Assembly (NCBI GenBank): GCA_934630375.1
Contig: CAKTVQ010000004.1
Location: 31,821 to 95,820, forward strand
Length of the DNA: 64,000 bases
DNA from: an uncultured Collinsella sp.
Lineage (GTDB): Bacteria > Actinomycetota > Coriobacteriia > Coriobacteriales > Coriobacteriaceae
Reading direction: 5' to 3'
Positions within the stretch are counted from its first letter, which is position 1; each line of letters starts with the position of its first letter. The translations under genes were made by a program, and so were the position numbers. Below the pieces are notes generated by a model. The model searched no databases. It had not been told where the DNA came from and worked only from the letters and a program-made list of their open reading frames with translations. Shown piece by piece: positions 23,177 through 61,657 of this stretch.

Positions 23177-23179
23177 GTC

Positions 23180-34646: not shown

Positions 34647-34693
34647 TAAACGATTGCAAATTACCGGTGAACGGTCGAAAACTACCGTTCACC
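34647..34693. promoter_or_regulatory. LytTR-like site cluster A upstream of the mannose-family PTS operon
   Basis: TAAACGAT (34647-34654) and TGAACGGT (34668-34675) are 21 bp apart, and an inverted copy ACCGTTCA follows at 34684-34691, making the perfect hairpin CGGTGAACGGT / ACCGTTCACCG (34665-34694). The 704-bp region 34414-35117 has no credible gene; it holds this, site B and a GntR-like operator. Confidence 0.5.
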
Positions 34694-34885
34694 GATATTT
34701 TCGAAACTGGTTCAAACTGGTATTAAGTCAAAAAGACCAATTCACAAATCTTCATAATGACCTGCATTTTTTCTACATGCGATTTTTAGCCACCCTACGT
34801 TGTTTAGACGCAGAGCAAGACCCGATCGGACGCCGAATCATTTCGAAACGGTTTCAAAACCGCAGGTAGAAGTGTTAACGAGCGG

Positions 34886-34914
34886 TAAACGGTCGGTTTT
34901 TTGCCGTGAGCGGT
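34886..34914. promoter_or_regulatory. LytTR-like tandem site B
   Basis: TAAACGGT (34886-34893) and TGAGCGGT (34907-34914), start-to-start 21 bp. Downstream, TATAGT at 34966-34971 is a possible -10 without a recognisable -35, as expected for an activator-dependent promoter. Confidence 0.55.
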
Positions 34915-34988
34915 GCAAAAACGTTTTACTGTATGAATCAACGAAAGCGACCTCTTCTGTGGTGATATAGTGACAACAACACGTCACG

Positions 34989-35019
34989 TGGTTACTACCA
35001 GTTGAGAGACCACTGGTCT
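34989..35019. promoter_or_regulatory. GntR-like operators before the PTS operon
   Basis: TGGTTACTACCAG (34989-35001) recurs exactly at 39282-39294 before agaS; AGACCACTGGTCT (35007-35019) is a 13-bp palindrome next to it. Both resemble the TGGT/ACCA boxes of NagR/DasR-type GntR regulators. Confidence 0.6.
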
Positions 35020-35117
35020 TCAAAGAACGCTTTCAAAGAAGCTTTAAGGGCGCCCGCCCGCTGGCTTCCGAAAACCATCGAACTCAGATCGTACACACCT
35101 TCGGAAGGGAAATTTGA

Positions 35118-35561
35118 ATGGTTGGCTTTATTCTTACCGGTCATGGACAGTTCGCACCCGGCCTTGCAAGCGCTATCGCTATGGTCGCTGGCGACCAGCC
35201 CGCTTTTACCGTCGTTCCTTTCGAGGGCGACCAGGCTGCCTCCTACGGTGAGGATCTCCGCGCCGCCATCACCGCTATGCGCGAGGAGTGCGATGGTGTG
35301 CTCGTCTTTACCGACCTGCTCGGTGGTACCCCCTTCAATCAGTCGATGATGATTGCCCAGGATGTCGACAACGTCGAGATTCTGACCGGCACCAACCTCC
35401 CCATGGTTATTGAGCTCCTGTTCCTCCGCGGCAATGCCACGCTCGCCGAGCTTGGCGAGCAGGCCGTGACCGTTGGCCAAACGGGCATCACCGCCCAGAC
35501 GGTCGCCTCCGTCGCTGGTGCCGAGGAAGAGGATATCTTCGGCGACGAGGACGGCATCTAA
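35118..35561 (+). CDS. PTS mannose-family EIIA component
   Basis: Accepts phosphate from HPr on a histidine and passes it to IIB. The N terminus VGFILTGHGQFAPGLASAI carries the active His (residue 9), and FTDLLGGTPFNQS is the conserved loop. 147 residues, single-domain. First gene of the PTS operon; the start of yajC overlaps its stop (TAATG). The genes downstream (AgaS, NagA, LacC) point to N-acetylgalactosamine or a related amino sugar as substrate. Confidence 0.93.
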   Translation: MVGFILTGHGQFAPGLASAIAMVAGDQPAFTVVPFEGDQAASYGEDLRAAITAMREECDGVLVFTDLLGGTPFNQSMMIAQDVDNVEILTGTNLPMVIELLFLRGNATLAELGEQAVTVGQTGITAQTVASVAGAEEEDIFGDEDGI

Positions 35562-35842
35562 TGGCCGATTTCGGAGCCAGCATCCTGAGCTCTTCGATCG
35601 CTCTTTTGGGTCTGCTTGTCATCATGGGTGTTATTTACACCATCTGGTCTCAGATCAACATGAAGAAGAAGCAGAAGTACTTCAAAGAGCTGCACACCGA
35701 GCTCAAGCCGGGTCAGGAGGTCCTTTTCGCCGGCGGTATCTACGGAACCGTCAAAGGCATCGAAGGCGATAAGGTCCAGATCAAAGTCCGATCCGGAGCC
35801 GTCGTAGATGTTTCGCGTTACGCGATTCAGGAGATCAAGTAA
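35561..35842 (+). CDS. yajC: YajC-family membrane protein inside the PTS operon
   Basis: 93 residues: one membrane helix (SIALLGLLVIMGVIYTIW), a basic patch MKKKQKYFKELHTELKPG, and the compact domain EVLFAGGIYGTVKGIEGDKVQIKVRSGAVVDVSRYAI that defines YajC, the accessory subunit of SecDF. Its start overlaps the IIA stop by one base and IIB follows in 36 nt, so it is part of the PTS operon. YajC-like genes are also known inside mannose-family PTS/glycosaminoglycan loci of streptococci, hence a PTS-specific paralogue rather than the Sec subunit is plausible. Confidence 0.9.
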   Translation: MADFGASILSSSIALLGLLVIMGVIYTIWSQINMKKKQKYFKELHTELKPGQEVLFAGGIYGTVKGIEGDKVQIKVRSGAVVDVSRYAIQEIK

Positions 35843-35878
35843 CTGTCGTCAGCAAACAACGAAAGGAAGCTGATCAAC

Positions 35879-36361
35879 ATGGCAGAACCCAACATTCTTC
35901 TTACCCGCATCGATAACCGACTGGTTCATGGTCAGGTTGCCACCCAGTGGAACTCCACCCTGGGCTCCAACCTCATCCTCGTCGCCAACGACGACGTGTC
36001 GACCAACACCATGCGCCAGAACCTCATGAAGATGGCCGCTCCCACCGGCGTCGCTACGCGTTTCTTCTCCCTGCAGAAGACCATCGACGTCATTGGCAAG
36101 GCGAGCCCGCGCCAGAAGATCTTCATCGTGGCCGAAACACCGGAAGACGTGCTTACGCTCGTCAAGGGCGGTGTGCCTATAAAGAAGGTAAACATCGGCA
36201 ACATGCACATGTCGGAAGGAAAGCGCCAAGTCGCCACCTCCGTCGCAGTTAACGACGAGGATGTCGCTGCGTTTAAAGAGCTGCAGGAATTGGGGGTGGA
36301 GTTGGAGATCAGGCGCGTTCCGAGCACGCCTGTTGAGGATACGAGCAAGCTCTTCTCGTAA
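35879..36361 (+). CDS. PTS mannose-family EIIB component
   Basis: 160 residues. The phosphorylated His lies in LLTRIDNRLVHGQVATQW (about residue 18), followed by NLILVANDDVSTNTMRQNLMKMAAP, RFFSLQKTIDVI, and LTLVKGGVPIKKVNIGNMHM, all typical of ManX/AgaV-type IIB. ATG follows GAAAGGAAGC. It has a close paralogue at 45622 in which this histidine is lost. Confidence 0.94.
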   Translation: MAEPNILLTRIDNRLVHGQVATQWNSTLGSNLILVANDDVSTNTMRQNLMKMAAPTGVATRFFSLQKTIDVIGKASPRQKIFIVAETPEDVLTLVKGGVPIKKVNIGNMHMSEGKRQVATSVAVNDEDVAAFKELQELGVELEIRRVPSTPVEDTSKLFS

Positions 36362-36451
36362 TCCTCGTGATCCACGTTGTCAGGAGTGAAACCCTGACAT
36401 TCTGTACGTGAAATCCAAAGTGCGTACATACATTTTGAAAGGAGGAGCAAG

Positions 36452-37252
36452 ATGGAATACTCGATCATCCAGGTCGCTCTGGTCTTCGTCGTCACGTTCA
36501 TCGCGGCAATCGACCAGTTCAACTTCCTCGAGTCTCTCTATCAGCCCATCGTCACCGGCGCCGTCATCGGTCTTATCCTTGGCGACCTCAACACCGGTCT
36601 TCTCGTGGGTGGTACTTATCAGCTCATGACGATCGGCAACATGCCGATCGGAGGCGCTCAGCCGCCTAACGCCGTTATCGGCGGCATCATGGCAGCCATT
36701 CTCGCAATCGCCACGGGCCTCGAGCCCAACGCGGCTGTCGGCCTTGCCATTCCGTTCGCTCTGCTTGGTCAGCTCGGCGTTACCCTCGTCTTCACCCTTA
36801 TGTCGCCGCTTATGTCCTCTGCGGACAACATGGCTCACAACGCTGACACCAAGGGTATCGAGCGTCTGAACTACTTCGCCATGGCCCTGCTCGGCCTGAT
36901 CTTCGCTGTCGTCGTCACCCTGTTCTTCATCGCTGGCGCCACCATCGGTCAGACCATCGCTTCCGCCATCCCGACTTGGCTGCAGACCGGTCTCTCCGCT
37001 GCAGGCGGCATGATGCGCTTCGTCGGCTTCGCCGTCCTGCTCAAGGTTATGATGAACCGCGATATGTGGGGCTTCTTCCTCATGGGCTTTGGCCTCGCGC
37101 TCATCACCGTTGCCAACGATTCTCTGGCAACCCCTGCTCTGCTCATCCTCGCTCTCATCGGCTTCGGCATCGCTTTCTGGGACTTCCAGCAGCAGACCGA
37201 GCTGAAGGGTGCAGCTGTTTCTGACGGAGGTGACTTCGAAGATGGCATCTAA
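36452..37252 (+). CDS. PTS mannose-family EIIC component
   Basis: 266-residue membrane permease subunit. Starts MEYSIIQVALVFVVTFIAAID; conserved PIVTGAVIGLILGDLNTGLLVGG and GGAQPPNAVIGGIMA segments; about seven hydrophobic segments. The C-terminal tail is short and acidic. Its last 11 nt overlap the IID gene. ATG is preceded by AAAGGAGGAG. It forms the sugar channel with IID. Confidence 0.94.
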   Translation: MEYSIIQVALVFVVTFIAAIDQFNFLESLYQPIVTGAVIGLILGDLNTGLLVGGTYQLMTIGNMPIGGAQPPNAVIGGIMAAILAIATGLEPNAAVGLAIPFALLGQLGVTLVFTLMSPLMSSADNMAHNADTKGIERLNYFAMALLGLIFAVVVTLFFIAGATIGQTIASAIPTWLQTGLSAAGGMMRFVGFAVLLKVMMNRDMWGFFLMGFGLALITVANDSLATPALLILALIGFGIAFWDFQQQTELKGAAVSDGGDFEDGI

Positions 37253-38324
37253 TGAGTATGTGATCCCGGAGCACTACGAGGATCTCACTCCTGCTCCGCA
37301 GCTCGACCAGAAGACCCTCAACAAGATGGCTTGGCGCTCCTGCTTCCTGCAGGCATCGTTCAACTACGAGCGTATGCAGGCCGCTGGCTGGCTCTACTCC
37401 ATCATCCCCGGTCTGGAGAAGATCCACACCAACAAGAACGACCTCGCGGCTTCCATGAGCCACAACCTGGAGTTCTTCAACACCCACCCGTTCCTTGTCA
37501 CCTTTGTTATGGGTATCGTGCTTTCGCTCGAGCAGAACAAGGTTGACATCCCCACGATCCGCGCCGTCCGCGTTGCCGCAATGGGCCCGCTCGGTGGTAT
37601 CGGTGACGCCCTGTTCTGGCTGACGCTCGTGCCTATCACGGCCGGCATCACCTCCAACATGGCCATCAACGGCAACGCCGCTGCGCCGATCATCTTCCTG
37701 GTGATCTTCAACGCCGTCCAGTTCGCTCTGCGCTTCTGGCTCATGAACTGGTCCTACAAGCTTGGCACCAGCGCTATTGACGCTCTGACCGCCAACATGC
37801 AGGCCTTCACGCGTGCCGCTTCCATCATGGGCGTCTTCGTCGTCGGTTGCCTGGTCGTCACCATGGGTGGCACCCAGATCAACCTCCAGATCCCCAACGG
37901 CACTACCCGCGGCATCGCTGCCCACACGGTTGTCGTCTCCGAGGAGGAGGCCGAGAACTTCACCGGCCTGGAGGGTATTGATACCGAGACCGCTGAGGCC
38001 GGCACCATGGCCATGACCGATGCTGATGGCAACGCCCTCACCGCCACCGATGCCGACGGCAACGCTGTCGAGTGCGGCGTCACCGATCTGGGCAACGGCA
38101 TGGAGTCCGTTACCTACGGTACCGTCACCGAGGATCCGGTCAACTTCTCCGTTGCCGACACCCTCAACACCATCGTCCCGAAGCTCGTCCCGCTTATGCT
38201 TACGCTGCTGCTTTACTACATGTTCGCTAAGCACAGCTGGACCCCGACCAAGGGCATTCTCCTGCTCTTTGTCCTGGGCATCCTGGGCGCTGGCCCGCTT
38301 GGTCTCTGGCCGAGCATCTGGTAA
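37242..38324 (+). CDS. PTS mannose-family EIID component with extra loop
   Basis: 360 residues from ATG 37242, overlapping IIC by 11 nt; GGAGG at 37226-37230. The family core is clear: LNKMAWRSCFLQASFNYERMQAAGW, FFNTHPFLVTFVMGIVLSLEQ, AAMGPLGGIGDALFWLTLVPI and the C-terminal LLLYYMFAKHSWTPTKGI. Usual IID proteins have about 270-300 residues; here about 70 extra residues (around 240-310), acidic with repeated TDADGNA, sit between the last membrane segments, probably outside. Terminator at 38391 ends the operon. Confidence 0.92.
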   Translation: MASNEYVIPEHYEDLTPAPQLDQKTLNKMAWRSCFLQASFNYERMQAAGWLYSIIPGLEKIHTNKNDLAASMSHNLEFFNTHPFLVTFVMGIVLSLEQNKVDIPTIRAVRVAAMGPLGGIGDALFWLTLVPITAGITSNMAINGNAAAPIIFLVIFNAVQFALRFWLMNWSYKLGTSAIDALTANMQAFTRAASIMGVFVVGCLVVTMGGTQINLQIPNGTTRGIAAHTVVVSEEEAENFTGLEGIDTETAEAGTMAMTDADGNALTATDADGNAVECGVTDLGNGMESVTYGTVTEDPVNFSVADTLNTIVPKLVPLMLTLLLYYMFAKHSWTPTKGILLLFVLGILGAGPLGLWPSIW

Positions 38325-38390
38325 GGCTCTAGCTTGAGGGGTGTGTCCCTACGCGGCTCACACCCCGACCCCTTAAGCCATGTGTATGTT

Positions 38391-38424
38391 AAAAGCCGCG
38401 TGCTCGAAAGAGCGCGCGGCTTTT
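38391..38424 (+). terminator. Rho-independent terminator after the PTS operon
   Basis: AAAAGCCGCGTGCTC pairs with GAGCGCGCGGCTTTT (one mismatch) over GAAA. Confidence 0.9.
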
Positions 38425-38509
38425 GTTTTCTTGATGATTCAGGGTGCAGCAGACAGATAATGCTAAACACCCTAGGTAGTAGCCGAGTTCGAGCAAATGG
38501 GAGGATAGG

Positions 38510-39241
38510 ATGGCGATCGGAGCGCGTAAGCAACCGCTGTACGATCAGCTGGTCGATATTCTGACCGAAAAGATTGACCACGAATATCACGCCGGCGACA
38601 TGATTCCTTCCGAGCGCGAACTTTCGGAGCGCTATGGTCTCTCGCGCACCACGGTGCGTCTGGCTCTGCAGGAGCTGGAGCGTCTGGGACTGGTGGTTCG
38701 GCAGCACGGTCGCGGTACTTTTGTGACCGACCGTTCGGCAAAGGCAACCAACCTTATGCAGTCCTACAGCTTTACCGAGCAGATGCGTGCGATGGGTCGC
38801 GATCCAGAGACTACGATTCTCGAGTTTTGCGAGATGGAGGCCGATAAGAATCTGGCTGAGCATATGGGATTGCGTATCGGCGATCGCATTTTTAAGCTCA
38901 AGCGCCTTCGTTCTGCCGACAACATGCCCATGATGGTCGAACGCAGCTATCTACCGGTTCGTCAATTTATGTCCCTAAAGCGACCGCTGCTGGAGCGTAA
39001 ACCGCTTTACGATGTGATTGAACAAGACTTTCAGCAAAAGATACGCGTGGCCGAAGAGGAATTCTATGCGAGCATCGCGCGTCCCACCGATGCCCACCTC
39101 TTGGGCATTGTCGAGGGTTCGCCCGTGCTCGATTTGGTCCGTACAACGTATAACGAGTCAAACGAGGTTGTGGAGTATACGCTCTCGGTTGCTCGTGCCG
39201 ATCAGTTTAAATACAAGGTTTATCACCAGCGCAACGTTTAG
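38510..39241 (+). CDS. GntR-family (UTRA) regulator of the amino-sugar locus
   Basis: 243 residues: winged helix (LYDQLVDILTEKIDHEYHAGDMIPSERELSERYGLSRTTVRLALQELERLGLVVRQHGRGTFV, described here by parts only) then a UTRA domain, like NagR/YvoA and AgaR2-type regulators that respond to GlcNAc-6-P or similar phosphosugars. It sits between the PTS operon and agaS-nagA. A TGGTTACTACCAG box occurs upstream of both transcription units (34989 and 39282), so it most likely represses them in the absence of an amino-sugar phosphate. ATG follows GGGAGGATAGG. Confidence 0.9.
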   Translation: MAIGARKQPLYDQLVDILTEKIDHEYHAGDMIPSERELSERYGLSRTTVRLALQELERLGLVVRQHGRGTFVTDRSAKATNLMQSYSFTEQMRAMGRDPETTILEFCEMEADKNLAEHMGLRIGDRIFKLKRLRSADNMPMMVERSYLPVRQFMSLKRPLLERKPLYDVIEQDFQQKIRVAEEEFYASIARPTDAHLLGIVEGSPVLDLVRTTYNESNEVVEYTLSVARADQFKYKVYHQRNV

Positions 39242-39280
39242 CGTCTCCAGTGTTGTCATGTGATGATTCTTTGCATTTAA

Positions 39281-39316
39281 CTGGTTACTACCAGATAACC
39301 AACCGAAGTGTATAAT
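39281..39316 (+). promoter_or_regulatory. agaS promoter with overlapping GntR-like operator
   Basis: CTGGTTACTACCAG (39281-39294) followed by ATAACCA and a -10 TATAAT at 39311-39316. The operator occupies the expected -35 zone, a good position for repression. The 13-bp core is identical to 34989-35001. Confidence 0.65.
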
Positions 39317-39355
39317 TGCACGTCAGAGGATTACTTCTAGAGAGAGGTATTAGAA

Positions 39356-40522
39356 ATGTTCGAGAAGAGTGTCGAGGAGCTCACCGAGCTCGGCGCCCAG
39401 ATCACCACGGCCGAGATTGCCCAGCAGCCCGAGCTTTGGCGTGATACGCTCAACATCTACCGCGAGAACAAGGAGGCCATCGAGGCCTTCCTGGCCGAGG
39501 CTCGCGCCATGGGCGAGGGCCGTCTGTCCGTTGTCTTCACTGGTGCCGGTACTTCTGACTACGTGGGCGATACCTGCGCTCCGTACCTGCGTCACGCTGG
39601 CAACACTGATCTCTACGACTTTAAGCCCATCGCCACGACTGATATCGTGAGCGCCCCGCGCGACTTCCTGCGCGCCGAGGATCCCACGCTCGTGGTTTCC
39701 TTTGCCCGCTCTGGCAACAGCCCCGAGAGCCTTGCTGCTGTCGCCGTTGCCAAGGAACTCGTCCACAACGTCAAGTTCCTCAACATCACCTGCGCTCCCG
39801 AGGGCAAGCTCGCTGTCGAGTCCGCCGATGATCCCAATGCGCTGACGCTGCTCATCCCGCGCGCCAACGACAAGGGCTTTGCCATGACCGGCTCCTACAC
39901 CTGCATGACCCTGCTCTCTACCCTCATCTTTGACGAGGCTTCCGACGAGCAGAAGGCCGAGTGGGTCGAGACCATCGCCAAGATGGGCGAGGAGGTCATC
40001 GCACGTGAGTCCGAGGTTGCCGACTACCTGGCTGGCGACTTCAACCGCGTGACCTACTTGGGTTCCGGCTCCTTCGGCGGCCTTGCCCAGGAGAGCCAGC
40101 TCAAGATCCTCGAGCTCGCTCACGGTCTGGTTGCTACTTCCTACGACACCTCCATGGGCTATCGTCACGGACCTAAGTCCTTCGTCGACGATAAGACGCT
40201 CGTCTTCGTGTTCGTCAACAACGACGCCTACACCCGTCAGTACGACATCGACATCCTTAACGAGATCGGTGGCGACAAGATCGCTCAGCACACCGTTGCC
40301 GTTCAGCAGGATGGCGCTACCGTCTACGAGGGCGAGTCTTTCACCTTTAAGGGCTATGAGGCACTCCCCGAGGGTTACCTCGCCCTGCCGTTCGTGATGT
40401 TTGCCCAGGCCATCAGCCTGCTCAACTCCGTCCGCGTGGGCAACACGCCCGATACGCCGAGCCCCACCGGCACGGTCAACCGCGTGGTTAAGGGCGTGAC
40501 GATTCACCCCTTCACCGCTTAA
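39356..40522 (+). CDS. agaS: AgaS-type SIS-domain sugar-phosphate isomerase/deaminase
   Basis: 388 residues with two SIS domains. FTGAGTSDYVGDTCAPYL, SFARSGNSPESLAAV and GSGSFGGLAQESQLKILEL with GYRHGPKSFVDD are the conserved phosphosugar sites. In the Aga pathway AgaS converts galactosamine-6-phosphate to tagatose-6-phosphate and ammonia; the presence of NagA next door and of LacC (tagatose-6-phosphate kinase) 3 kb on supports this. Separately promoted (TATAAT at 39311), with a terminator at 40540. Confidence 0.9.
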   Translation: MFEKSVEELTELGAQITTAEIAQQPELWRDTLNIYRENKEAIEAFLAEARAMGEGRLSVVFTGAGTSDYVGDTCAPYLRHAGNTDLYDFKPIATTDIVSAPRDFLRAEDPTLVVSFARSGNSPESLAAVAVAKELVHNVKFLNITCAPEGKLAVESADDPNALTLLIPRANDKGFAMTGSYTCMTLLSTLIFDEASDEQKAEWVETIAKMGEEVIARESEVADYLAGDFNRVTYLGSGSFGGLAQESQLKILELAHGLVATSYDTSMGYRHGPKSFVDDKTLVFVFVNNDAYTRQYDIDILNEIGGDKIAQHTVAVQQDGATVYEGESFTFKGYEALPEGYLALPFVMFAQAISLLNSVRVGNTPDTPSPTGTVNRVVKGVTIHPFTA

Positions 40523-40539
40523 TCGCGTCCCCCTGTAAG

Positions 40540-40577
40540 GGCGCCCGTCCGCTCATAACGGCGGGCGGGCGCTTTTT
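40540..40577 (+). terminator. Rho-independent terminator after agaS
   Basis: GCGCCCGTCCG pairs with CGGGCGGGCGC, then TTTTT. Confidence 0.85.
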
Positions 40578-40640
40578 GTTTTACGTGAGCTGGGTATAAG
40601 CATCACCACAGTCAACTGCTTTTAGAAGCAAGGAGTGCAT

Positions 40641-41810: not shown

Positions 41811-41815
41811 CGACA

Positions 41816-41854
41816 GAAAAAGACGGCGGGCCCGAATTTGCTCGGACCCGCCGT
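41816..41854 (-). terminator. Terminator of the minus-strand flavodoxin gene
   Basis: ACGGCGGG...CCCGCCGT (41822-41854) with inner pairing CCGA/TCGG; read on the minus strand it runs into a T stretch (plus-strand AAAAAG). Probably also stops nagA transcripts. Confidence 0.75.
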
Positions 41855-41884
41855 ATGGGTTAACGCTCAAAAGCACCTTAACAG

Positions 41885-51842: not shown

Positions 51843-53621
51843 CTAGTCGAGGTTCTCGCGGAGCCACTTGATGGCGCCAGCGGGGTCGCGGGTAAGGTCG
51901 ATATATTCCTTGCCGCGCGGGGCGAGCAGCTTAATGCCCAGACGATCGGTGTCGGCCTTCATGTCGTTGTAGTAGCTACGAACCTGCGGGGCGAGCACGA
52001 TGACGTCGTACTGATCCATGATGGCAGTGTGCTGGCCATAGGCGCCTGCGGAGGAAGCGATGTTCTCTCCGGTCTGCGCGGCACCTTCCTTGATGGCGTT
52101 GGCAAGCATGGCGGAGGTGCCGGCGCCGGCGCACAGGACGAGGACCTTCAGACCGTCGACATCCTTCTTGGCGGATGCGTCGGCGGCGGGCTCGGGCTGA
52201 TCGGCGACAGGCTTGCTGTCGGCGGCAGCGGCGGTCGGCTCGACGGAAGCGGTGGCCTGCTCGACAGCGGGCGCAGAGGGCTTGGCGGCGATGGCAGTGG
52301 CACCATTGGACTCGAGACCCAGCTCGGCGGCGCGCTCGGCCTCCTGGTCGCAGAGCAGCTTATCGTACGCCTTCAAGAACGGCAGGTAGATGATGGCGTC
52401 CAGCAAGATGATGATCGCGACAAATACCAGGGCGATAAGCTGGAAGTTCGTGGTGATGAAGATGCCGATGGGGGCAGGGGTAGCCCAAGGCACCACGAAG
52501 GAGAAGCCGTTCATGCCTACGTTATCGATAAAGAACTTGGCAACACTCACGTTGACGCAGCCGGCGGCAACAAAGGGGATGAGCATGTAGGGGTTAAGGA
52601 TCATCGGCGCGCCAAAGAGCAGCGGTTCGTTGACGGCGAAGGCAACAGGAACAATCGAGGCCTTACCGACGGCTTTGAGCTGCTTGGACTTCATAAAGAG
52701 AATCAGCAGAAGCGGCACGATGAACGTGGCGCCGGTGCCGCCGAACTCGCCCACGAGCGACATGTTAAAGGTGAGGGAGTGGGCGGGGTGACCACCGGCC
52801 AGCAGAACCTGCAGGTTCTCGGCCTGGTTGGCAAGACGGATGGGGTCGATGCCCGGCTGGACGATCGAGGGGCCGTGGACGCCGATGAACCAGAAGAACG
52901 CGGTGGCTGCCTGGATAAGGATAAGGCCAGGGTAGGTCTCTGCCGCAGTGAAGAGCGGGGAGAGCAGCTTGATGAGCAGCTCGGAGAACGGAACGCCCAT
53001 GAGGTTGCGCACAACGACATCGATGATGCCGCAGATGATGACGGCGCCGCCAAAGGGGATGATGTCGCGGAAGTTCTGAGCGATGGCGCCCGGGACCTCC
53101 TTGGGCAGCTTAATGGTCAGATCGCGCGAGACGCAGAACTTATAGACCCAAACGGTAATGAACGCGGCGATATAGGCCGAGAACAGACCGCGCGTACCCA
53201 TGCTGGTGCAATCGAAGACCGAAAGCTCGGAGCCGTTGAACTTGGTGGTGAACTGCGTGACTGCGAGCAGCAGCATGCTGCACTGGGCGGCCACCATGGT
53301 GGAGCCGTCGTTGAGCACCTTGCCGGCGGGCATGCGACGGTTCATGGAAGCCGTAAAGTTCTTGGCAGTGGTGCCGGCAACCATGATGCCCATGACGCCC
53401 ATGGTGAAGTTGTACAGCTTGTTACACCAGTCGATGAGCGGCTGGGGCAGCGTGATGCCAACTACGCCAGGAAGGGTGGCAATCAGTAGAAAGATCGAAG
53501 AGGTGAGGACGATGGGCATGCACCCAAGGAATCCGTCCTTAATGGCCTGGAGGTAGATGTTCCTCGAGATCTTCTCAAAGAACGGTTGATGCTTTTCGAG
53601 CATCTTTACGATGGCGTCCAT
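51843..53621 (-). CDS. lacE: PTS lactose-family EIICB (LacE type, copy 1)
   Basis: 592 residues: an N-terminal IIC of about 430 residues with some ten membrane segments (GFLGCMPIVLTSSIFLLIA; FIGVHGPSIVQPGIDP; FGGTGATFIVPLLLILFM; VAFAVNEPLLFGAPMILNP), an Ala/Pro-rich linker (460-490), and a C-terminal IIB with the phosphocysteine in VLVLCAGAGTSAMLANAI. This fused layout is that of LacE. The IIA partner must be LacF at 59950. A lacI regulator is divergent, with operator-like repeats between. Confidence 0.92.
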   Translation of the reverse strand: MDAIVKMLEKHQPFFEKISRNIYLQAIKDGFLGCMPIVLTSSIFLLIATLPGVVGITLPQPLIDWCNKLYNFTMGVMGIMVAGTTAKNFTASMNRRMPAGKVLNDGSTMVAAQCSMLLLAVTQFTTKFNGSELSVFDCTSMGTRGLFSAYIAAFITVWVYKFCVSRDLTIKLPKEVPGAIAQNFRDIIPFGGAVIICGIIDVVVRNLMGVPFSELLIKLLSPLFTAAETYPGLILIQAATAFFWFIGVHGPSIVQPGIDPIRLANQAENLQVLLAGGHPAHSLTFNMSLVGEFGGTGATFIVPLLLILFMKSKQLKAVGKASIVPVAFAVNEPLLFGAPMILNPYMLIPFVAAGCVNVSVAKFFIDNVGMNGFSFVVPWATPAPIGIFITTNFQLIALVFVAIIILLDAIIYLPFLKAYDKLLCDQEAERAAELGLESNGATAIAAKPSAPAVEQATASVEPTAAAADSKPVADQPEPAADASAKKDVDGLKVLVLCAGAGTSAMLANAIKEGAAQTGENIASSAGAYGQHTAIMDQYDVIVLAPQVRSYYNDMKADTDRLGIKLLAPRGKEYIDLTRDPAGAIKWLRENLD

Positions 53622-53795: not shown

Positions 53796-53824
53796 TGAAC
53801 GGTCGATATTGTCCGATAAACGGC
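53796..53824. promoter_or_regulatory. LytTR-like tandem site C
   Basis: TGAACGGT (53796-53803) and TAAACGGC (53817-53824), 21 bp apart, between divergent lacE1 and lacI1. Confidence 0.55.
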
Positions 53825-53897
53825 TGATTTGTCAGTCGGGCAGGTAGTGTATGCTAGAACGCAAAAAAGAAGCGATGCAAAACCGACTGGAGAAGTA

Positions 53898-54908: not shown

Positions 54909-54926
54909 ACGTGCTCGGCTCGTTCA

Positions 54927-54981
54927 TCTTAATCTGTAACAGGTAGGACCAAAATACTCGGCTACGTGTTACAGATCGAGA
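54927..54981. repeat. Fourth copy of the 55-bp palindromic unit
   Basis: TCTTAATCTGTAACAGG ... GTGTTACAGATCGAGA with an A-rich centre, same length and symmetry as the three copies at 50036-50251. Confidence 0.85.
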
Positions 54982-55002
54982 TAAACGGCTTCCGACCTGC
55001 AC

Positions 55003-55046
55003 AAAAAGGCCGGGGGCGGCGCGCCGTGTGACGTGCCGCCCCCGGC
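55003..55046 (-). terminator. Terminator of the lacE-lacG operon (copy 2)
   Basis: GCCGGGGGCGGC / GCCGCCCCCGGC stem, T5 on the minus strand. Just downstream (55056) is a GGGGACAGGTT core of the dispersed repeat. Confidence 0.9.
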
Positions 55047-55091
55047 TGAGAAATGGGGACAGGTTGTGTGAGCGGGCAACCCCGCCAGCCG

Positions 55092-56531
55092 CTAGTCCAG
55101 ACGACGGGTCTGCGCCACGTGCTTGTACCAGTAGGCGCTTGCCTTGGGCGTGCGCTTCTGGGTTTCAAAGTCAACGTAGAAGAAGCCGTAACGCTTGTTA
55201 TAGCCATTTGTCCAGGAGAACTGGTCCTGCAGGCTCCACAGGAAGTAGCCGCCCACGTTGACGCCCACCTCCATGGCCTTGAGCAGCCAGCGCAGGTGCT
55301 GCTCGATGTAGTCGATGCGCGGCTGGTCGTCCACAAAGCCGTCCTTGTAGGGGTCCTTGTAGCCCATACCGTTTTCGGTGATGAAGATCTGCTTGTAGTT
55401 GGGGTAGCGCTGCTTAATGTAGACGAGCAGGTCGAACAGGCCCTCGGGATAGATGATCCAGTCCCAGTCGGTGGTGGGGATGCCGGGCTTGTTCACATGC
55501 TCGCCAATGCCCTTGACGCGCCAGCGACCGGTGCCCTTCTCGCCCGTACCGTTGTGGTGCAGGTCGTTCTCGCCATCGTAAGCCTTCAAAAAACGGCACT
55601 GGTAGTTGTTAACGCCCAGGTAGTCGTTGTAGAGCGCTGCTTCGCGCATAATCTTGAGGTCTTCGTCTAGGATCTCGATGGTGCCGCCCGAGACGGCAGC
55701 CAGGCGGTTGGCGCACTCGAGGGTGTCGGGGGCATAGTCGCCGCGGAAGGTGGCGTCGAGCAAAAACTGGTTTTGCAGCACGTGCTCGTTGTTGGCGGCC
55801 TTGATGTCGGCGGGGTCGTTCTCGTTGAGCGGATACTTGAACTCCAGCGACTGAATGACGCCGATCTTGCCCTTAAAACCGCCGTTGTGGAAGGCCAGTA
55901 CTGCCTTGGCGTGGGCGAGCATCATGTTGTGCTCGCACTGGAAGGCCTCGGCCAGATGGGCTTTGACGCCGCCCGGGAAGGTGCCCTCGATGTAGGTGTT
56001 GGAGGCGTCGGCCCAGATTTCGTTAAAGGTGAACCAGTAGGTTACCTGGTCGGCGTACTCCTTAAAGCAGAAGGTGGCAAAGTCCACAAAGGCGTCGATG
56101 GTCTCGCGGTTGAGGAAGTCGCCCTTCTCAAAGAGGGGCAGCGGCGTGTCAAAGTGATGCAGCGTGACAAACGGCTCAACGTGGTGCTTGTGGCACTCGG
56201 CGAAGAGATCGTGGTAGAACTGGACACCCTCGGGGTTGATTTCGCCGGTGCCGTTGGGGAAGATGCGGCTCCAGGCAATGGAGAGGCGGATGCCGTTGAT
56301 GCCGAACTCCTCGCACAGCTGCAGATCGACGGGGTACTGGTTGTAGAAGTCGGAAGCGGGATCGGGGGAGAAACGGCCCTGGGCCTCCAGGAAGTCGTCC
56401 CAGGCAACCTTGCCCTTACCGTGAGTGCGGGTCTCGCCCTCTACCTGGTAGGCAGCAGTGGCGCCGCCAAAGACAAAGTCCTCGGGAAACTGCGCAGGCG
56501 GGTTGGTGACGCTAGCAGGGTTAACGGACAT
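55092..56531 (-). CDS. lacG: 6-phospho-beta-galactosidase, GH1 (copy 2)
   Basis: 479 residues, paralogue of the enzyme at 50347. FPEDFVFGGATAAYQVEGE, VTLHHFDTPLPLFEKGDFLN, acid/base YWFTFNEIWAD, nucleophile FITENGMGYKD and phosphate site FSWTNGYNKRYGFFY are intact. The HHFDTP wording is closer to staphylococcal/lactococcal LacG than the DHFDTP of copy 1, so the two may differ in substrate. It has ten extra N-terminal residues; the ATG at 56531 gives an unusual SVNPASVTNPP lead. 66 nt after lacE2 on the same strand. Confidence 0.88.
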   Translation of the reverse strand: MSVNPASVTNPPAQFPEDFVFGGATAAYQVEGETRTHGKGKVAWDDFLEAQGRFSPDPASDFYNQYPVDLQLCEEFGINGIRLSIAWSRIFPNGTGEINPEGVQFYHDLFAECHKHHVEPFVTLHHFDTPLPLFEKGDFLNRETIDAFVDFATFCFKEYADQVTYWFTFNEIWADASNTYIEGTFPGGVKAHLAEAFQCEHNMMLAHAKAVLAFHNGGFKGKIGVIQSLEFKYPLNENDPADIKAANNEHVLQNQFLLDATFRGDYAPDTLECANRLAAVSGGTIEILDEDLKIMREAALYNDYLGVNNYQCRFLKAYDGENDLHHNGTGEKGTGRWRVKGIGEHVNKPGIPTTDWDWIIYPEGLFDLLVYIKQRYPNYKQIFITENGMGYKDPYKDGFVDDQPRIDYIEQHLRWLLKAMEVGVNVGGYFLWSLQDQFSWTNGYNKRYGFFYVDFETQKRTPKASAYWYKHVAQTRRLD

Positions 56532-56597
56532 GATGATCCAATCGTCTAAATCGAAGGGCCAGCCGGTCTTGGATGGTCGGCTGGCCCTGGGCGTTAC

Positions 56598-58373
56598 TTA
56601 CTTCGAGAGTTGCTCGGAGACGAAGGCGAGAGACTTGTCGCCGTTCTGGGAGAGCTCGATGTACTGCTTACCGCGGCAGGCGACGCACTTGTTGCCCACA
56701 CGCTCGCAGTCTTTCTGCAGGTCGGCCAGGTAGCTGGCGGCCTGCGGGGCCAGGACGACCAGATCAAAGTCGGGGAGCATGTCGACGTGGTTGCCATATG
56801 CTTCGGCAGCGGTTTCGAGGTTAATGCCGCGCTCCTTGGCGGCCTTGGCCAGCGCGTTGGCGAGCAGGCCCGAGGTGCCGCCGCCCTGGCAGAGCACGAG
56901 CACGCGCTTGCCGTTGAGGTCGCTGGCGGTCGTAGCCTCGGCAGCGGGTGCTGCGGAAGCGGCGGGGGTGTCAGCCTTCACAGCCTCGGCAGCGGCGCCG
57001 GCGGCAACGCTCTTGGCATCGGCCTTGCCCTGGAAGGCGTCGTTGAGCTTGGCGGCCTTCTCGGCGTTCTTGGCGGCGAGCTCCTCCTGGGAGATCTCGG
57101 CCTCCTCGGCGCACTTCTGGGCGTCATAGGCACGGAAGAACGGGTAGTACAGGGCAAAGTCGACGACCAGGATGAGGGCGAGCATCACAAAGGCGAGCGG
57201 CTGGAAGCCCAAGCCCATGATGGTGCCGATGGGGCCGGGAACGGTCCAAGGCAGGGTGTACATAAAGCCGTTCATGCCCAAGAAGTCGATAAAGATCTTG
57301 AGGATCCAGATGTTGGCGATCGGAGCAAAGACAAACGGGACAAAGAAGACGGGGTTGAGCACGATGGGTGCGGCGAACAGCAGCGGCTCGTTGACGGCAA
57401 AGCACACGGGGACGATGGCTGCCTTACCGACGGCGCGCATCTCCTGAGACTTGGCCAGGAAGCAGAACATGAAGACCAGGACGAGCGTGGCACCGGTGCC
57501 GCCCATACAGACGACGAAGTACTGGGCACCCTGGGTCAGGACAGCGGAAGCGTGCTGGCCGGCCTGGAACGCAGCCAGGTTGTCGGTCATGTTGGCAACG
57601 AGAGCAGCGGCGATGGCGGGCTCGACGATCGAGGGGCCGTGGACGCCCACGAACCAGAACAGGCTCATAGCGCCGTAGATCACAGCGAGGCCGATGTAGC
57701 CGTCGGCAGCGGTGAACAGTGGCTGGAACACTTGGATGACGCCCTGGGCAAAGCAGAAGCCAAAGGCAGCGCGGAAGACGATGTCAAAGACCCAAAAGAC
57801 GGTGATGCAGACGGAGAAGGGGATGATGTCCTTAAAGGTCTGCGAGATGTTGGGCGGAACCTGCTCGGGCATCTTGACGGTGATGTTGCGCTTGATGAAG
57901 AACTTGTAGATGATGCCGGTCACAAACGCAGCAATAAAGGCGGTCAACAGGCCTTTGGAACCAAGGTAGGTGGTGTTGAAGCCGCTGGCAGCGTCCGTGG
58001 CGATGGTGTCGCTCGAAAGGAGCAAGAAGCCGATGATGGCCGCGCACATGCACGAGATGAAGTTAATCTGGTTGTTCTTGGGCAGATCGCGGTTCTGAGC
58101 GTCGGCGAAGTGCTTGGCCGTGGTGGCGGCGCAGGCGATGGCCAGGATGCCCATGGAGTAGTTGTAGCACTTCCACAGGGCGTTGTTGATGTCATCGGGC
58201 CAATAGAAACCCCAGATGTTGGGGACCGAGGCTACCAGGCAGAAGATGGACGAGAAGATGATGATGGGGATGACGGAGATAAAGCCGTCGCGGATCGCCT
58301 TGAGGTACTTGTTGCGGGCGATCGCGTTGAAAAAGGGCTGGCCCTTTTCGATGATGGCGATGAGTTGCTCCAT
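56598..58373 (-). CDS. lacE: PTS lactose-family EIICB (LacE type, copy 2)
   Basis: 591 residues, same fusion as the copy at 51843: IIC membrane part (GFISVIPIIIFSSIFCLVAS; FVGVHGPSIVEPAIAA; MGGTGATLVLVFMFCFLAKS; FAVNEPLLFAAPIVLNPVFF), Ala-rich linker, and IIB with phosphocysteine in VLVLCQGGGTSGLLANAL. The IIB loop differs (CQGGGTSG against CAGAGTSA). It shares LacF with copy 1, since no other lactose-type IIA is in view. The lacI-type gene at 58731 is divergent. Confidence 0.92.
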   Translation of the reverse strand: MEQLIAIIEKGQPFFNAIARNKYLKAIRDGFISVIPIIIFSSIFCLVASVPNIWGFYWPDDINNALWKCYNYSMGILAIACAATTAKHFADAQNRDLPKNNQINFISCMCAAIIGFLLLSSDTIATDAASGFNTTYLGSKGLLTAFIAAFVTGIIYKFFIKRNITVKMPEQVPPNISQTFKDIIPFSVCITVFWVFDIVFRAAFGFCFAQGVIQVFQPLFTAADGYIGLAVIYGAMSLFWFVGVHGPSIVEPAIAAALVANMTDNLAAFQAGQHASAVLTQGAQYFVVCMGGTGATLVLVFMFCFLAKSQEMRAVGKAAIVPVCFAVNEPLLFAAPIVLNPVFFVPFVFAPIANIWILKIFIDFLGMNGFMYTLPWTVPGPIGTIMGLGFQPLAFVMLALILVVDFALYYPFFRAYDAQKCAEEAEISQEELAAKNAEKAAKLNDAFQGKADAKSVAAGAAAEAVKADTPAASAAPAAEATTASDLNGKRVLVLCQGGGTSGLLANALAKAAKERGINLETAAEAYGNHVDMLPDFDLVVLAPQAASYLADLQKDCERVGNKCVACRGKQYIELSQNGDKSLAFVSEQLSK

Positions 58374-58432
58374 GCAATGCTCCTAAGAGTCGGTGGGTTA
58401 GCAACGATGGTAGCTTTTGACTTTCGGTTGCC

Positions 58433-58572
58433 AAAATGTTGACGTTGCCATTTTGTGACACAAAAAAAGAAGCGAACCGGTGGTTTCTGTGCCTGCGAAC
58501 CGTCGATTCCTTACGCGTAAACGTTTGAGCCGCCCGGTGGCTCTGTGTTTGCACAATGGCAACGTTAACATT
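58433..58572. promoter_or_regulatory. LacI-type operators between lacE2 and lacI2
   Basis: Two related palindromes with a central ACGT: AATGTTGACGTTGCCATT (58435-58452) and AATGGCAACGTTAACATT (58555-58572), about 120 bp apart and inverted relative to each other. LacI-family operators typically have a central CG; a looped repressor complex is conceivable. The region 58374-58730 has no gene. Confidence 0.6.
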
Positions 58573-58610
58573 TGGGCGACAAAAGCCGTTCGGGGAAGCA
58601 AAAATGTCGG

Positions 58611-58639
58611 TGAACGGTAGGTTTTGGGTGGTGAGCGTA
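58611..58639. promoter_or_regulatory. LytTR-like tandem site D
   Basis: TGAACGGT (58611-58618) and TGAGCGTA (58632-58639), 21 bp apart, between divergent lacE2 and lacI2. Confidence 0.5.
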
Positions 58640-58730
58640 TGGTGGGGGAGGCGTTGGATATACTTGAAGGCGTTAAAAATGACTGCGCAAGGTGCCACCA
58701 ATGGCATCGTTGACATAGAAAGATCGACCT

Positions 58731-59735
58731 ATGGCCGCTGTTAAAAAATCGGTATCCGTCAAAGACGTAGCGCGCCTCGCGGGCGTCTCGGAGCAGACGG
58801 TCTCGCGTACGGTGCACGATTCGCCCAGCGTGCGCCCCGAGACCAAGGAACGCGTGCGTGCCGCCATGCGCGAGCTGGGGTATCGCCCCAATTTTGCCGG
58901 TCGATCGCTGCGCCGCGGTAAGTTTAAGACCGTCGGCGTCGCCATGTTCAACATTACCGGCACCGGCAATCTCGACCGTATGGAGGGCTTTGCCGCAGCG
59001 GCCGACAAACATGGCTATGCCATCACCCTCACTAAAGTAGATGGACATCCCTATACCCTCGAGAGCGCATCGTCGCGCATGAGCGCACTGCCGGTGGATG
59101 GCATGGTTGTGATTATGAACCGCATGCCGGCGGACTTTGGAACCTTCGGGCCGCTGCCCGGCATGCAGACGGTGCTCGTTACGATGTTGGAGCACCCGCT
59201 CTGTTCAACGGTCGATAACGACCAGTTCGATTGCTCGCGCCAGGTGGTCGAGTACTTGCTGGAGCAGGGGCACAAAACCGTGCACTTTATCTCGTGCCCC
59301 GAGCGCTCGCTTTCGGGCATGCGGCGCGAGGAAGGCTGGCGCGAGACATTGCGTGCGCATGGTATTGAGCCACCGCAGCTCGTGCGCGGCGACTGGACGG
59401 CGCAGAGTGGATATGCCGCAGGCCAGGCTCTGGCGGATGATCCGACCTGTACCGCCATCTATGCCTCCAACGATGCCATGGCATATGGCTGCATCCGTGG
59501 GCTCGAGTCGCGCGGGAAGTGCGTGCCCCAGGACGTGAGCGTGGTGGGTGTTGATGACAGCCTGGGCGATATCGTGCCCGATTGTCGCCTGACCACGGTG
59601 CGCTTTGATAACAAGCGCGTCGGCATGTGGGCGGTCGACAAGATTGCCGGCGCCGAGGGCGTTGCGCCCGGTGTGGAGCACATGCTATTTCCGGGCGTGC
59701 TCGTCGAGGGCGATACGGTGCGCGATGTACGCTAG
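58731..59735 (+). CDS. LacI-family regulator (copy 2)
   Basis: 334 residues. Helix-turn-helix SVKDVARLAGVSEQTVSRTV and the hinge RPNFAGRSLRRGKFKTVG, then the sensor domain (STVDNDQFDCSRQVVEYLLEQGHKTVHF; YASNDAMAYGCIRGLESRG; VSVVGVDDSLGDIVPD). The recognition helix (SEQTVSRT) differs from copy 1 (SLKTVSRV), in keeping with the different palindromes at the two loci. Divergent from lacE2-lacG2. The start codon lacks a strong Shine-Dalgarno (AGAAAGAT). Confidence 0.9.
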   Translation: MAAVKKSVSVKDVARLAGVSEQTVSRTVHDSPSVRPETKERVRAAMRELGYRPNFAGRSLRRGKFKTVGVAMFNITGTGNLDRMEGFAAAADKHGYAITLTKVDGHPYTLESASSRMSALPVDGMVVIMNRMPADFGTFGPLPGMQTVLVTMLEHPLCSTVDNDQFDCSRQVVEYLLEQGHKTVHFISCPERSLSGMRREEGWRETLRAHGIEPPQLVRGDWTAQSGYAAGQALADDPTCTAIYASNDAMAYGCIRGLESRGKCVPQDVSVVGVDDSLGDIVPDCRLTTVRFDNKRVGMWAVDKIAGAEGVAPGVEHMLFPGVLVEGDTVRDVR

Positions 59736-59795
59736 GGCGCAGGTCTGTTTGGGTTGCCGCTAATTATGTTCGATATTGTTCAGATTGGTTTAAAA

Positions 59796-59824
59796 ACCGT
59801 TCACGGGCAAAAATTGACCGTTCA
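59796..59824. promoter_or_regulatory. LytTR-like tandem site E upstream of lacF
   Basis: ACCGTTCA at 59796-59803 and again at 59817-59824, exactly 21 bp apart; the best-conserved pair in the window. Orientation is opposite to sites B, C, D and F on the + strand. Confidence 0.6.
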
Positions 59825-59855
59825 TAGCTTGAAATTACGTTTTGCGCTGTTCTTT

Positions 59856-59876
59856 TTTGTTTGAATGTTATTGTTT
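59856..59876. promoter_or_regulatory. TTTGTTT / TTATTGTTT repeats before lacF
   Basis: Contains TTTGTTTGAATG followed by TTATTGTTT, sharing both half-sites with the deoR promoter box at 47635 but with wider spacing. Candidate LacR site. Confidence 0.4.
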
Positions 59877-59949
59877 CTGTCATACACAACGCAGCGCGTA
59901 TGCCCGGACGCGATGCTCTCCATTGGTTCATATGTGAAAGGAACGCAAC

Positions 59950-60288
59950 ATGGCAACCAAAGAAGAAATCTCGATGGTTGGATTCGAGATTGTCGCATAC
60001 GCAGGTGACGCCCAGACCGATCTGCTTGCAGCGCTCGATGCTGCTCGCGAGGGTGACTTTGAGAAGGCCGAGCAGCTGCACAAGGATGCCAGCGATGCGC
60101 TCATCGGTGCCCACGACACGCAGACCAAGCTGCTTTCGCAGGAGGCCGGCGGTGGCGAGATGGAGATGACCTTCATCATGGCTCACGCTCAGGACACCCT
60201 CATGACCACTATGATCCTGGAGAAGCAGGCCCGCTTTACCATCGATGCCTACAAGCGCATCGCCGAGCTCGAGGCCAAGCTCGCTTAA
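59950..60288 (+). CDS. lacF: PTS lactose-family EIIA (LacF)
   Basis: 112 residues, all-helical IIA of the lactose/chitobiose type: EEISMVGFEIVAYAGDAQTDLLAALDAAREGDFEKAEQL, and the active-site segment TFIMAHAQDTLMTTMIL, with the phosphorylated His at about residue 80. The trimer core LLSQEAGGGEMEM is typical. ATG follows GAAAGGAACG. It is the only lactose-type IIA in the window and stands apart from both LacE genes, so it must serve both. Confidence 0.93.
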   Translation: MATKEEISMVGFEIVAYAGDAQTDLLAALDAAREGDFEKAEQLHKDASDALIGAHDTQTKLLSQEAGGGEMEMTFIMAHAQDTLMTTMILEKQARFTIDAYKRIAELEAKLA

Positions 60289-60315
60289 CGAGCCCTCACA
60301 ACCAAGTCCCCTTCC

Positions 60316-60350
60316 AAAAGCTCTGCCGCATTTCGCAGCAGGGCTTTTTC
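60316..60350 (+). terminator. Terminator after lacF
   Basis: AAAGCTCTGC pairs imperfectly with GCAGCAGGGCTTT, then T5. Confidence 0.65.
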
Positions 60351-60364
60351 TGTTTACCCGGCAC

Positions 60365-60394
60365 TTAGGGACGTTCCTTTTCTGCCGGCAGTTT
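60365..60394. repeat. GGGAC-core repeat, exact 30-bp copy of 18282-18311
   Basis: Thirty identical bases, starting TTAGGGACGTTCC and ending CTGCCGGCAGTTT. Two more cores follow within 50 bp (TTGGGACACTCC, ATTGGGGACAGTC), so this spacer is a cluster of the dispersed element. Confidence 0.85.
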
Positions 60395-60521
60395 GGGACA
60401 CTCCTTCAGTCGGGGCAGTCATTGGGGACAGTCTTGGGATGCTCTGCCGCCTCCCGTTCGGTTTTTCGATGGGTGGGTATACTTTCCACCGCAATACAGG
60501 CCGGAATGAGGAGGTATCCAA

Positions 60522-61523
60522 ATGCCGGACAACGGATCAATTCAAAAAAGAGACGCGTATGAGATGGCTCATGGGCATCCTGTCCAGATAATCGAGCATA
60601 CGACGGTAACCGAGCTGCAGCCCAGCCTGTCCGATGTCGTGTGCGCAAACAAAAAGCTGCAGATTGGCTTTATCGTTGCGCTCGTGGTGCTGGCGCTGCT
60701 GTCGGGCTTTGTCGCGCGCCCGCATTTTGCCGATACCAAGACTTGGGACTCCACCATCGAGGTTATCGATCAAAAGAAAGGTAACGTACTGGCGCTCACG
60801 ACCTCGTGCGTGGCGCTGTCTGCGGGCATTACGGCGTTGCCGGGTGATACGGGAACGCCGGTCGCCGAGCAGCTCGCGCAGCTTTCAGGTAACTTGGGCA
60901 TCGTACTTGCCGTGCTCTACCTCGAGAAATATCTGTTGACCATTTTGTGGTCGGTTGGCTTGGGCATCTTAATCCCGTTTGCGTTGGTGCTCTTTGCGGT
61001 GTCGCTCGGCATTCACGGGCGCTGGAGCACGAGCGCCGTCCTGCGCCGTGTGGCGACGCGCGTGCTGGTGGTTGCCGTGATCGGCATGGCGCTTGTACCC
61101 GCGAGTGTGTGGGTATCGCAAAAGGTCGATGAGACGTATCAGGTGAGTATCGAGCAGACAGAGCAAAAGGCGACAGGCGCGGCTGAGGCGAGCTCGTCAA
61201 AGAGCAAAAAGAAATCTGAAGCAAAGACAGACAAAAACGTGCTTGAGCAACTGACCGAAGGCGCCTCGAGTCTGCTGACTTCGGTGACCGATAGCGCCAA
61301 GTCGATGACCGACGAGGTTGTCCAGCAGGTGACTGATCTCATCGAAGGTGTCATCGTGATGATTGTGACTTCGTGCGTGATTCCGCTGCTGGTGCTTGCT
61401 GCATTCTTGTGGCTTGGGCACGTACTGCTGGGGATCGATATCTCCGGTCCCACGAACTATCTGACGGGTCGTTTTCTGAGCGCCCCCTCCAAGCACGTCA
61501 AGAAGGGCGGGCAGACTGAGTAG
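60522..61523 (+). CDS. Multi-pass membrane protein, unknown function
   Basis: 333 residues. Predicted membrane segments near residues 47-65 (QIGFIVALVVLALLSGFV), 130-165 (two, LLTILWSVGLGILIPFALVL), 180-200 (VLVVAVIGMALVPASVWV) and 275-300 (VIVMIVTSCVIPLLVLAAFL); a Ser/Lys-rich charged stretch (SSSKSKKKSEAKTDK) lies between. No family recognised. ATG follows GAGGAGGT at 60506-60513. It separates lacF from lacAB, with its own terminator at 61557; no evident link to sugar use. Confidence 0.78.
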   Translation: MPDNGSIQKRDAYEMAHGHPVQIIEHTTVTELQPSLSDVVCANKKLQIGFIVALVVLALLSGFVARPHFADTKTWDSTIEVIDQKKGNVLALTTSCVALSAGITALPGDTGTPVAEQLAQLSGNLGIVLAVLYLEKYLLTILWSVGLGILIPFALVLFAVSLGIHGRWSTSAVLRRVATRVLVVAVIGMALVPASVWVSQKVDETYQVSIEQTEQKATGAAEASSSKSKKKSEAKTDKNVLEQLTEGASSLLTSVTDSAKSMTDEVVQQVTDLIEGVIVMIVTSCVIPLLVLAAFLWLGHVLLGIDISGPTNYLTGRFLSAPSKHVKKGGQTE

Positions 61524-61556
61524 CTAAAAGGATCGTTTTGCTGATCCATATCTCCG

Positions 61557-61593
61557 AAAGGGCGACCGAGATGCGTTCTCGGTCGCCCTTTTT
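61557..61593 (+). terminator. Rho-independent terminator
   Basis: Perfect 15-bp stem AAAGGGCGACCGAGA / TCTCGGTCGCCCTTT, 5-nt loop, then T run. Confidence 0.95.
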
Positions 61594-61628
61594 GTTGAGT
61601 GCGTGACCGCTCACGCCTCCGTCAGGCC

Positions 61629-61657
61629 CAAACGGTCAACAAACACCCGCGAACGGT
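61629..61657. promoter_or_regulatory. LytTR-like tandem site F upstream of lacA
   Basis: CAAACGGT (61629-61636) and CGAACGGT (61650-61657), exactly 21 bp apart. Confidence 0.5.

Follow-up and report, generated by a model that had tools for sequence, protein, structure and literature searches.

LytTR operators, as described for AgrA, VirR and FsrA, consist of two direct or inverse repeats of 9–11 nt separated by a spacer of 11–13 nt, while the same source states that LytTR operators in general have no common consensus (PMC4847170), so that the family as such does not predict a particular motif. BtsR of Escherichia coli is described as an activator of btsT (PMC10653868). The btsT promoter contains ACCGCTTA-N13-ACCACTCA in the orientation of the gene, 135 bp 5′ of the start codon, and fits ACCRYTYA-N13-ACCRYTYA with zero mismatches. 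The BtsR half-site is reportedly ACC-R-C-T-Y-A, with N13 between the halves. Here, we analyzed a stretch of 64,000 nucleotides (the window) from an uncultured member of the common gut genus Collinsella (assembly GCA_934630375.1, contig CAKTVQ010000004.1, positions 31,821 to 95,820), which contains pairs of short direct repeats near sugar uptake genes. We describe the motif of these pairs, its spacing, conservation and distribution, and its positional link to one LytTR gene. Probably, the pairs serve as operators for a single two-component system whose genes lie outside the window.

Repeat pairs in the window and their conservation

A preliminary description of the window had listed six TRAACGGT pairs with a 21-bp spacing, linked to phosphotransferase system (PTS) genes, as a candidate LytTR regulon. 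Direct reading of the window bore out the six pairs (starting at 34647, 34886, 53796, 58611, 59796 and 61629), all of which have a start-to-start spacing of 21 bp. The literal sequence is present twice only in the pair 59796/59817, while the other five carry variant halves (TAAACGAT at 34647, TGAGCGGT at 34907, TAAACGGC at 53817, TGAGCGTA at 58632, and CAAACGGT/CGAACGGT in the pair 61629/61650). The statement that no pair occurs elsewhere in the window did not hold, as pattern and matrix searches found a seventh one at 23230 (ACCGTTTGcggacgaattgctACCGTTTG), 5′ of a ComF-like gene with zinc-ribbon and phosphoribosyltransferase domains. A lone half without a partner (TGAACGGT) is located at 17003. 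All seven pairs have counterparts on a single contig (C10) of G001, the nearest genome compared.

A literal search for TRAACGGT missed most pairs, and a matrix was used instead. The main matrix was built from 15 G001 sites located off contig C10 and non-syntenic with the window, and was applied with a threshold of 14. Nine matches were obtained in the window, namely the seven pairs, scoring 21.3–36.5, and the overlapping frames at 34663 and 34668. By comparison, 40 Markov-3 shuffles of the window gave on average 0.4 and never more than 2 matches at this threshold, and 30 column-permuted matrices gave 0 or 1 match each on the real window; the density of the pairs is clearly above that in shuffled sequence. 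A first matrix had been trained partly on G001 sites in synteny with the window, and the second matrix, without these sites, was used for the conservation and main positional scans.

On the opposite strand, the motif reads ACCGYTYR-N13-ACCGYTYR, with CSG favoured following the first half and the middle rich in A/T. A search of G001 with a free spacer of 4–30 bp found three exact ACCGTTYA pairs, all with a spacer of 13 bp. When same-strand ACCGYTYR pairs were counted at distances of 8–60 bp, four were found at 21 bp and one at 28 bp in the window. The 21-bp distance was present in 50 of 50 pairs from 23 named lac loci, which were fetched by their LacI protein and not by the motif, and in 3 of 8 pairs from 48 loci retrieved through the LytTR gene. 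Direct repeats of ∼8 nt with a 13-nt spacer, recurring in 21-bp steps, correspond to the LytTR-type operator format.

The window LacI protein (58731–59732) is 95–98% identical to its counterparts at 20 of the 24 loci returned, the other four showing 81, 63, 63 and 31% identity. The 20 close loci come from records of C. aerofaciens, Collinsella sp. or uncultured Collinsella, and the window can be ascribed to a C. aerofaciens-like genome. Among those reaching the respective place, the sites at 53796, 58611, 59796 and 61629 are kept in 15 of 18, 20 of 20, 20 of 20 and 19 of 19 loci, with half-site versus 25-bp flank identities of 0.873/0.540, 0.957/0.875, 0.987/0.859 and 0.903/0.759, respectively. 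At 53796 both halves are retained despite a strong divergence of spacer and flanks. At 58611 the spacer (0.990) is as conserved as the halves, and this site alone is therefore weak proof. The pairs are thus kept in sister species, and also across the Collinsella family.

The survey of the class covered 196 genomes and used a stricter pattern, in which no more than one mismatch was allowed, with the reversed pattern as a control. In the Collinsella family (f1), all 43 genomes contain the motif (469 matches, 3–19 per genome; reversed control 18). It was found in 47 of 49 genomes of a second family (f2; 133 matches, control 11) and in 16 of 46 genomes of a third one (f3; 19 matches, control 10), and subtraction from the tally of 137 leaves 31 of the remaining 58 genomes with the motif. 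The family names Coriobacteriaceae (f1), Atopobiaceae (f2) and Eggerthellaceae (f3) were deduced, and only that of f1 is backed by a named locus, L148 of C. aerofaciens, which carries the same lac sites as contig C10 of G001. A genome-wide search with two mismatches was useless; since the reversed control was as frequent (75 versus 92 and 114 versus 143), all genome counts rest on zero or one mismatch.

The regulator and its position relative to the motif

LytTR-family regulators are present, with three in G001 and at least one Pfam LytTR match in 195 of the 196 class genomes, a frequency at which the presence of the domain alone decides nothing. Two of the G001 proteins, C21a and C21b, are BtsR-like and encoded ∼6 kb apart on contig C21. 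The gene of the third (L033, contig C54) adjoins a gene for a GHKL-domain membrane sensor kinase, as in Agr-type peptide systems. An orthologue of C21b was found in 55 of 56 genomes of the Collinsella family at 80–100% identity, 54 being intact and one (G206) split across two contigs. A second BtsR-like match, with 42–52% identity, was detected in 36 of these 55 genomes and in none of the other 19. The 14 of these 19 that were also surveyed for sites all hold 4–15 of them. In G122, which is a complete genome, the paralogue adjoins a permease gene and an amidohydrolase-like gene.

Very probably, the protein acting on the sites is a BtsR-like REC-LytTR regulator whose gene lies outside the window; it is represented by C21b and, in G122, encoded at L190:12649–13389. 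Its REC and LytTR domains both score above cut-off, and its orthologues in the class are 32–39% identical to E. coli BtsR. The kinase, as annotated in G122, has GAF, His_kinase and HATPase_c domains. The 5TM-5TMR_LYT domain, which is present in BtsS, was detected neither in the G122 kinase nor in that of one distant locus (L110), and pyruvate sensing can therefore not be carried over from BtsS. A sequence search of PDB returned receiver-domain matches and no LytTR-DNA complex among the best 60 of 225 matches.

We then scored the loci around the orthologous regulator gene with the Collinsella-trained matrix at all offsets. The all-offset scans were relied upon, as the permutation windows of a first positional scan had been chosen after earlier scoring. 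The orthologues at the distant loci are mostly 73–89% identical to the L039 or C21b query. For an initial set of 20 distant-family loci, the best scores averaged 5.36 at their peak, 450–600 bp after the regulator, and no more than 1.06 elsewhere. This set is biased, since four of its loci (L096, L103, L108, L110), which gave the four top scores, had been noticed beforehand with a motif near the regulator; without them (n = 16), the peak stayed at the same place with a mean of 2.65. While the removal of these loci weakened the set, the link was restored by 20 fresh distant loci, fetched regardless of the motif, which showed a peak of 5.01 and 1.72 at the next place. For all 36 non-preselected loci the peak was 3.96, as compared with 2.75 for the best of 20 permuted matrices, whose maxima lay at scattered offsets.

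In loci with genes listed, the peak place lies between the metallophosphatase gene and an operon with usp, DUF485-like and sodium-symporter genes. The second-best place in the 36 loci is ∼900 bp before the end of the regulator, just 5′ of its gene. The latter is the peak place (7.84; at most 1.86 elsewhere) in 16 loci of f3 (15) and a fourth family, f4 (1), of which 5 score above 15. Among four f2 loci, L132 had its best match (13.9) near the upstream place and the other three had nothing. As the motif occupies a fixed place beside the orthologous regulator gene in other families, the pairing of site and protein looks ancestral, and in the family of the window the sites seem to have been carried to many further promoters.

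The idea of LytTR control put forward in the preliminary description is thus well supported by the excess over shuffled sequence, the conservation in sister species, the presence of LytTR proteins, the repeat at btsT and the positional link to one LytTR gene. At the level of sequence comparison it can be specified as a BtsR-like regulator acting on BtsR-like candidate sites. Four observations weigh against this assignment. In the five loci of the Collinsella family that were scanned, no site is present beside the kinase-regulator-phosphatase block, which leaves these loci without a local or autoregulatory site. The single-locus scores in the other families are mostly weak, with 15 of the 36 non-preselected loci above 5 versus 21–36.5 for the window sites. 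In 4 of 23 listed site-gene pairs, the site is oriented opposite to the gene. Finally, G192 has nine sites, yet neither the regulator nor the kinase was detected in this assembly (96% complete, 100 contigs). The regulator is present in G161 and G108 of the same genus, and the failure to detect it in G192 reflects either an assembly gap or a real loss.

Candidate targets

The sites of the window adjoin the following genes. The pair at 59796–59824 (+), the best of the window with a matrix score of 36.5, lies 5′ of the candidate target lacF, encoding a lactose-type PTS IIA (59950–60288, +; NCBIfam EIIA-LAC 118.2 bits, below the cut-off of 136.95). The half-sites 5′ of lacF form a triple in 21-bp steps at 59775–59824 (ATTGTTCA, ACCGTTCA, ACCGTTCA), the first of which (59775) is weak and missing in some relatives. 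The pair at 53796–53824 (−; 31.0) is located between a LacI gene and a candidate target for a lactose-type PTS IIBC (51843–53621, −), which scores 238.5 against a cut-off of 236 for the NCBIfam lacE family and falls below the cut-off of the stricter lac_pts_IIC model. A second IIBC gene of this type (56598–58373, −; lacE family, above cut-off) is the candidate target of the weaker pair at 58611–58639 (−; 21.3), on the other side of which the LacI gene starts at 58731 (+). The pair at 61629–61657 (−; 25.0) lies 5′ of, and opposite in orientation to, the candidate target lacA for a galactose-6-phosphate isomerase subunit (61829–62257, +; NF006380, above cut-off).

Two further pairs, at 34886–34914 (−; 32.5; G001 counterpart C10:42004) and 34647–34675 (−; 28.3; C10:42243), share the divergent intergenic region 5′ of agaF (35118–35561, +), a candidate target encoding an N-acetylgalactosamine (GalNAc)-type PTS IIA (NCBIfam AgaF 127 bits, slightly below the cut-off of 130). 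The divergent 217-aa membrane-type open reading frame (ORF) adjoining both sites (33775–34428) matched no Pfam or NCBIfam model at the thresholds applied. An inverted copy at 34663–34696 overlaps the 34647 site, with half-sites facing each other across ∼16 bp, and the two overlapping matrix frames in it score 23.7 and 17.5. The pair at 23230–23258 (+; 31.4; identical counterpart C10:52647) adjoins the ComF-like gene (23159–23986, +; Pfam DZR_2 and Pribosyltran above cut-offs). The start of this ORF at 23159 is mechanical and lies upstream of the site; its true start is probably downstream of it.

The preliminary description had taken the regulon to be PTS-linked. Sugar and PTS genes or their regulators are indeed prominent, adjoining ten of the 16 exact sites of G122 (EIIA-Glc, an RpiR-type regulator, lacF, a lacE-type gene, an N-acetylglucosamine (GlcNAc)-like PTS, rhamnulokinase-like and fucose-isomerase-like genes, two LicT-like antiterminators and GH4). 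This scope proved too narrow, as two of the other six sites adjoin arcA, one argG and one a xanthine permease gene, and the remaining two sites have no assigned target. Among 16 one-mismatch sites, 14 were read; five of these have no clear target, and the additions are arcA, fructose PTS, galactokinase-like, lacA, GH35-like, diaminopropionate ammonia-lyase, ABC sugar-binding protein, fructoselysine-deglycase-like and ComF-like genes. Several of these G122 names rest on matches below the curated cut-off. Genes were called by GC content at codon positions, by which antisense or over-long ORFs were sometimes taken (L162, L163, L165, L172, L173), and targets in divergent regions were chosen by judgement. 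L163 was assigned to EIIA-Glc by synteny with L022 of G001. Three sites adjoin arginine deiminase arcA genes, apparently two copies (L160, L161, L177; G122 positions 320843, 323676 and 323933), which may point to a connection with energy derived from arginine.

Mode of action, alternatives and known systems

Binding and activation, like the signal, are inferred. The genes of the system would encode a GAF-containing LytS-type histidine kinase and a REC-LytTR response regulator, with the metallophosphatase gene next in line. Two LytTR domains would occupy the direct half-sites ACCGYTYA, which are separated by two helical turns and lie on the same side of the DNA. The protein would sit immediately 5′ of the promoter, where its most likely effect is activation of transcription. 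In 20 hand-picked promoters, -10-like elements peak 30–50 bp past the end of the site (z up to 4.3, mononucleotide null), and in 19 of the 23 hand-chosen site-gene pairs, btsT included, the site is oriented with the gene. Activation is suggested by this site geometry together with the role of BtsR at btsT. Repression of the sugar genes instead is a less probable mode, although some sites are distant from or opposed to their gene (171 bp for lacA, 203 bp for agaF, 218 bp for pbuX) and genes of repressor type (LacI, GntR, RpiR) adjoin sites; the sites lie upstream of the -10-like peak and do not cover it, and the E. coli relative is an activator (PMC10653868).

Binding by the LytTR paralogue C21a, or by both proteins, is improbable. 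C21a is also BtsR-like (35% identity to E. coli BtsR, 44% to C21b), and in G018 a site (L194:506; 21.3 with the first matrix) lies 5′ of a permease-like gene near the paralogue. However, genomes with no second BtsR-like match keep their sites, and the positional link in other families points to the orthologue of C21b. Direct repeats spaced by 21 bp are also known for the AraC/XylS family, and AraC-type helix-turn-helix domains were found in 8 of 9 genomes tested. Apart from this likeness in spacing, a regulator of that family is very unlikely, since G136 has four sites yet no HTH_18 match, so that the required regulator is not in every site-bearing genome, and HTH_18 numbers range from 0 to 7, unrelated to the sites; such a regulator would also account neither for the repeat at btsT nor for the constant position next to the LytTR gene. 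The candidate targets resemble those of a catabolite regulon, but operators of CRP or CcpA are the least likely of all, the motif being a direct repeat and not a palindrome as are CRP and CcpA sites. Moreover, searches for a cNMP-binding domain were negative in G001, G122, G092 and G145 (one or two in the other four of eight genomes tested), and no CcpA scored above the curated cut-off in any of the eight.

With no cNMP-binding domain found in four of the eight genomes and no CcpA above its cut-off in all eight, there is room for carbon control based on LytTR. In the Collinsella family, the BtsR-like system would then govern dispersed carbon and energy genes across the genome according to carbon status, namely those for lactose, GalNAc, GlcNAc-like and fructose PTS, EIIA-Glc, LicT-like antiterminators, galactokinase-like and rhamnulokinase-like proteins, arginine deiminase, diaminopropionate ammonia-lyase and a xanthine permease. 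We tentatively consider it possible that this LytS/LytTR system without the BtsS sensor domain is the global carbon-catabolite regulator of the family in place of CRP and CcpA, an ancestral local switch rewired to ∼20–30 promoters of sugar, arginine and purine genes. The ancestral switch would have acted at one usp/symporter promoter, as in the distant families, or at a site 5′ of the regulator, as in Eggerthellaceae-like loci. In the open-licence papers accessible to us, we found no account of global carbon control in Collinsella and nothing relevant on LytTR carbon regulons. If true, a two-component system with no assigned role can be given a binding site, a set of targets and a function open to testing, and a conserved regulator-site pair has moved from one local promoter to a regulon spanning the genome, with a kinase that lacks the sensor domain of its E. 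coli relative.

Among known systems, YpdA/YpdB-yhjX of E. coli is likewise a LytS/LytTR system with a direct-repeat site, but the half-site given for YpdB (GGCATTTCAT) is unlike the Collinsella motif (PMC4847170). CRP and CcpA regulons share the target functions, sugar uptake and catabolism, while the proteins belong to other families and neither was found in G001, G122, G092 and G145. The Collinsella motif is predicted not by the general LytTR family but by BtsR. E. coli BtsSR is similar in its LytS-type kinase and REC-LytTR regulator and in the same form of repeat, ACC-R/G-Y-T-Y-A with N13. It differs in that BtsS has the 5TM-5TMR_LYT domain and the Collinsella kinase does not, in that Collinsella has a large dispersed set of candidate sites as opposed to the btsT promoter, and in that the scanned loci of the Collinsella family are without a site beside the regulator's own genes. 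The kind of system is thus already known; new are how large the candidate regulon is and which genes it holds, the deviating sensor, and the shift in targets across the class.

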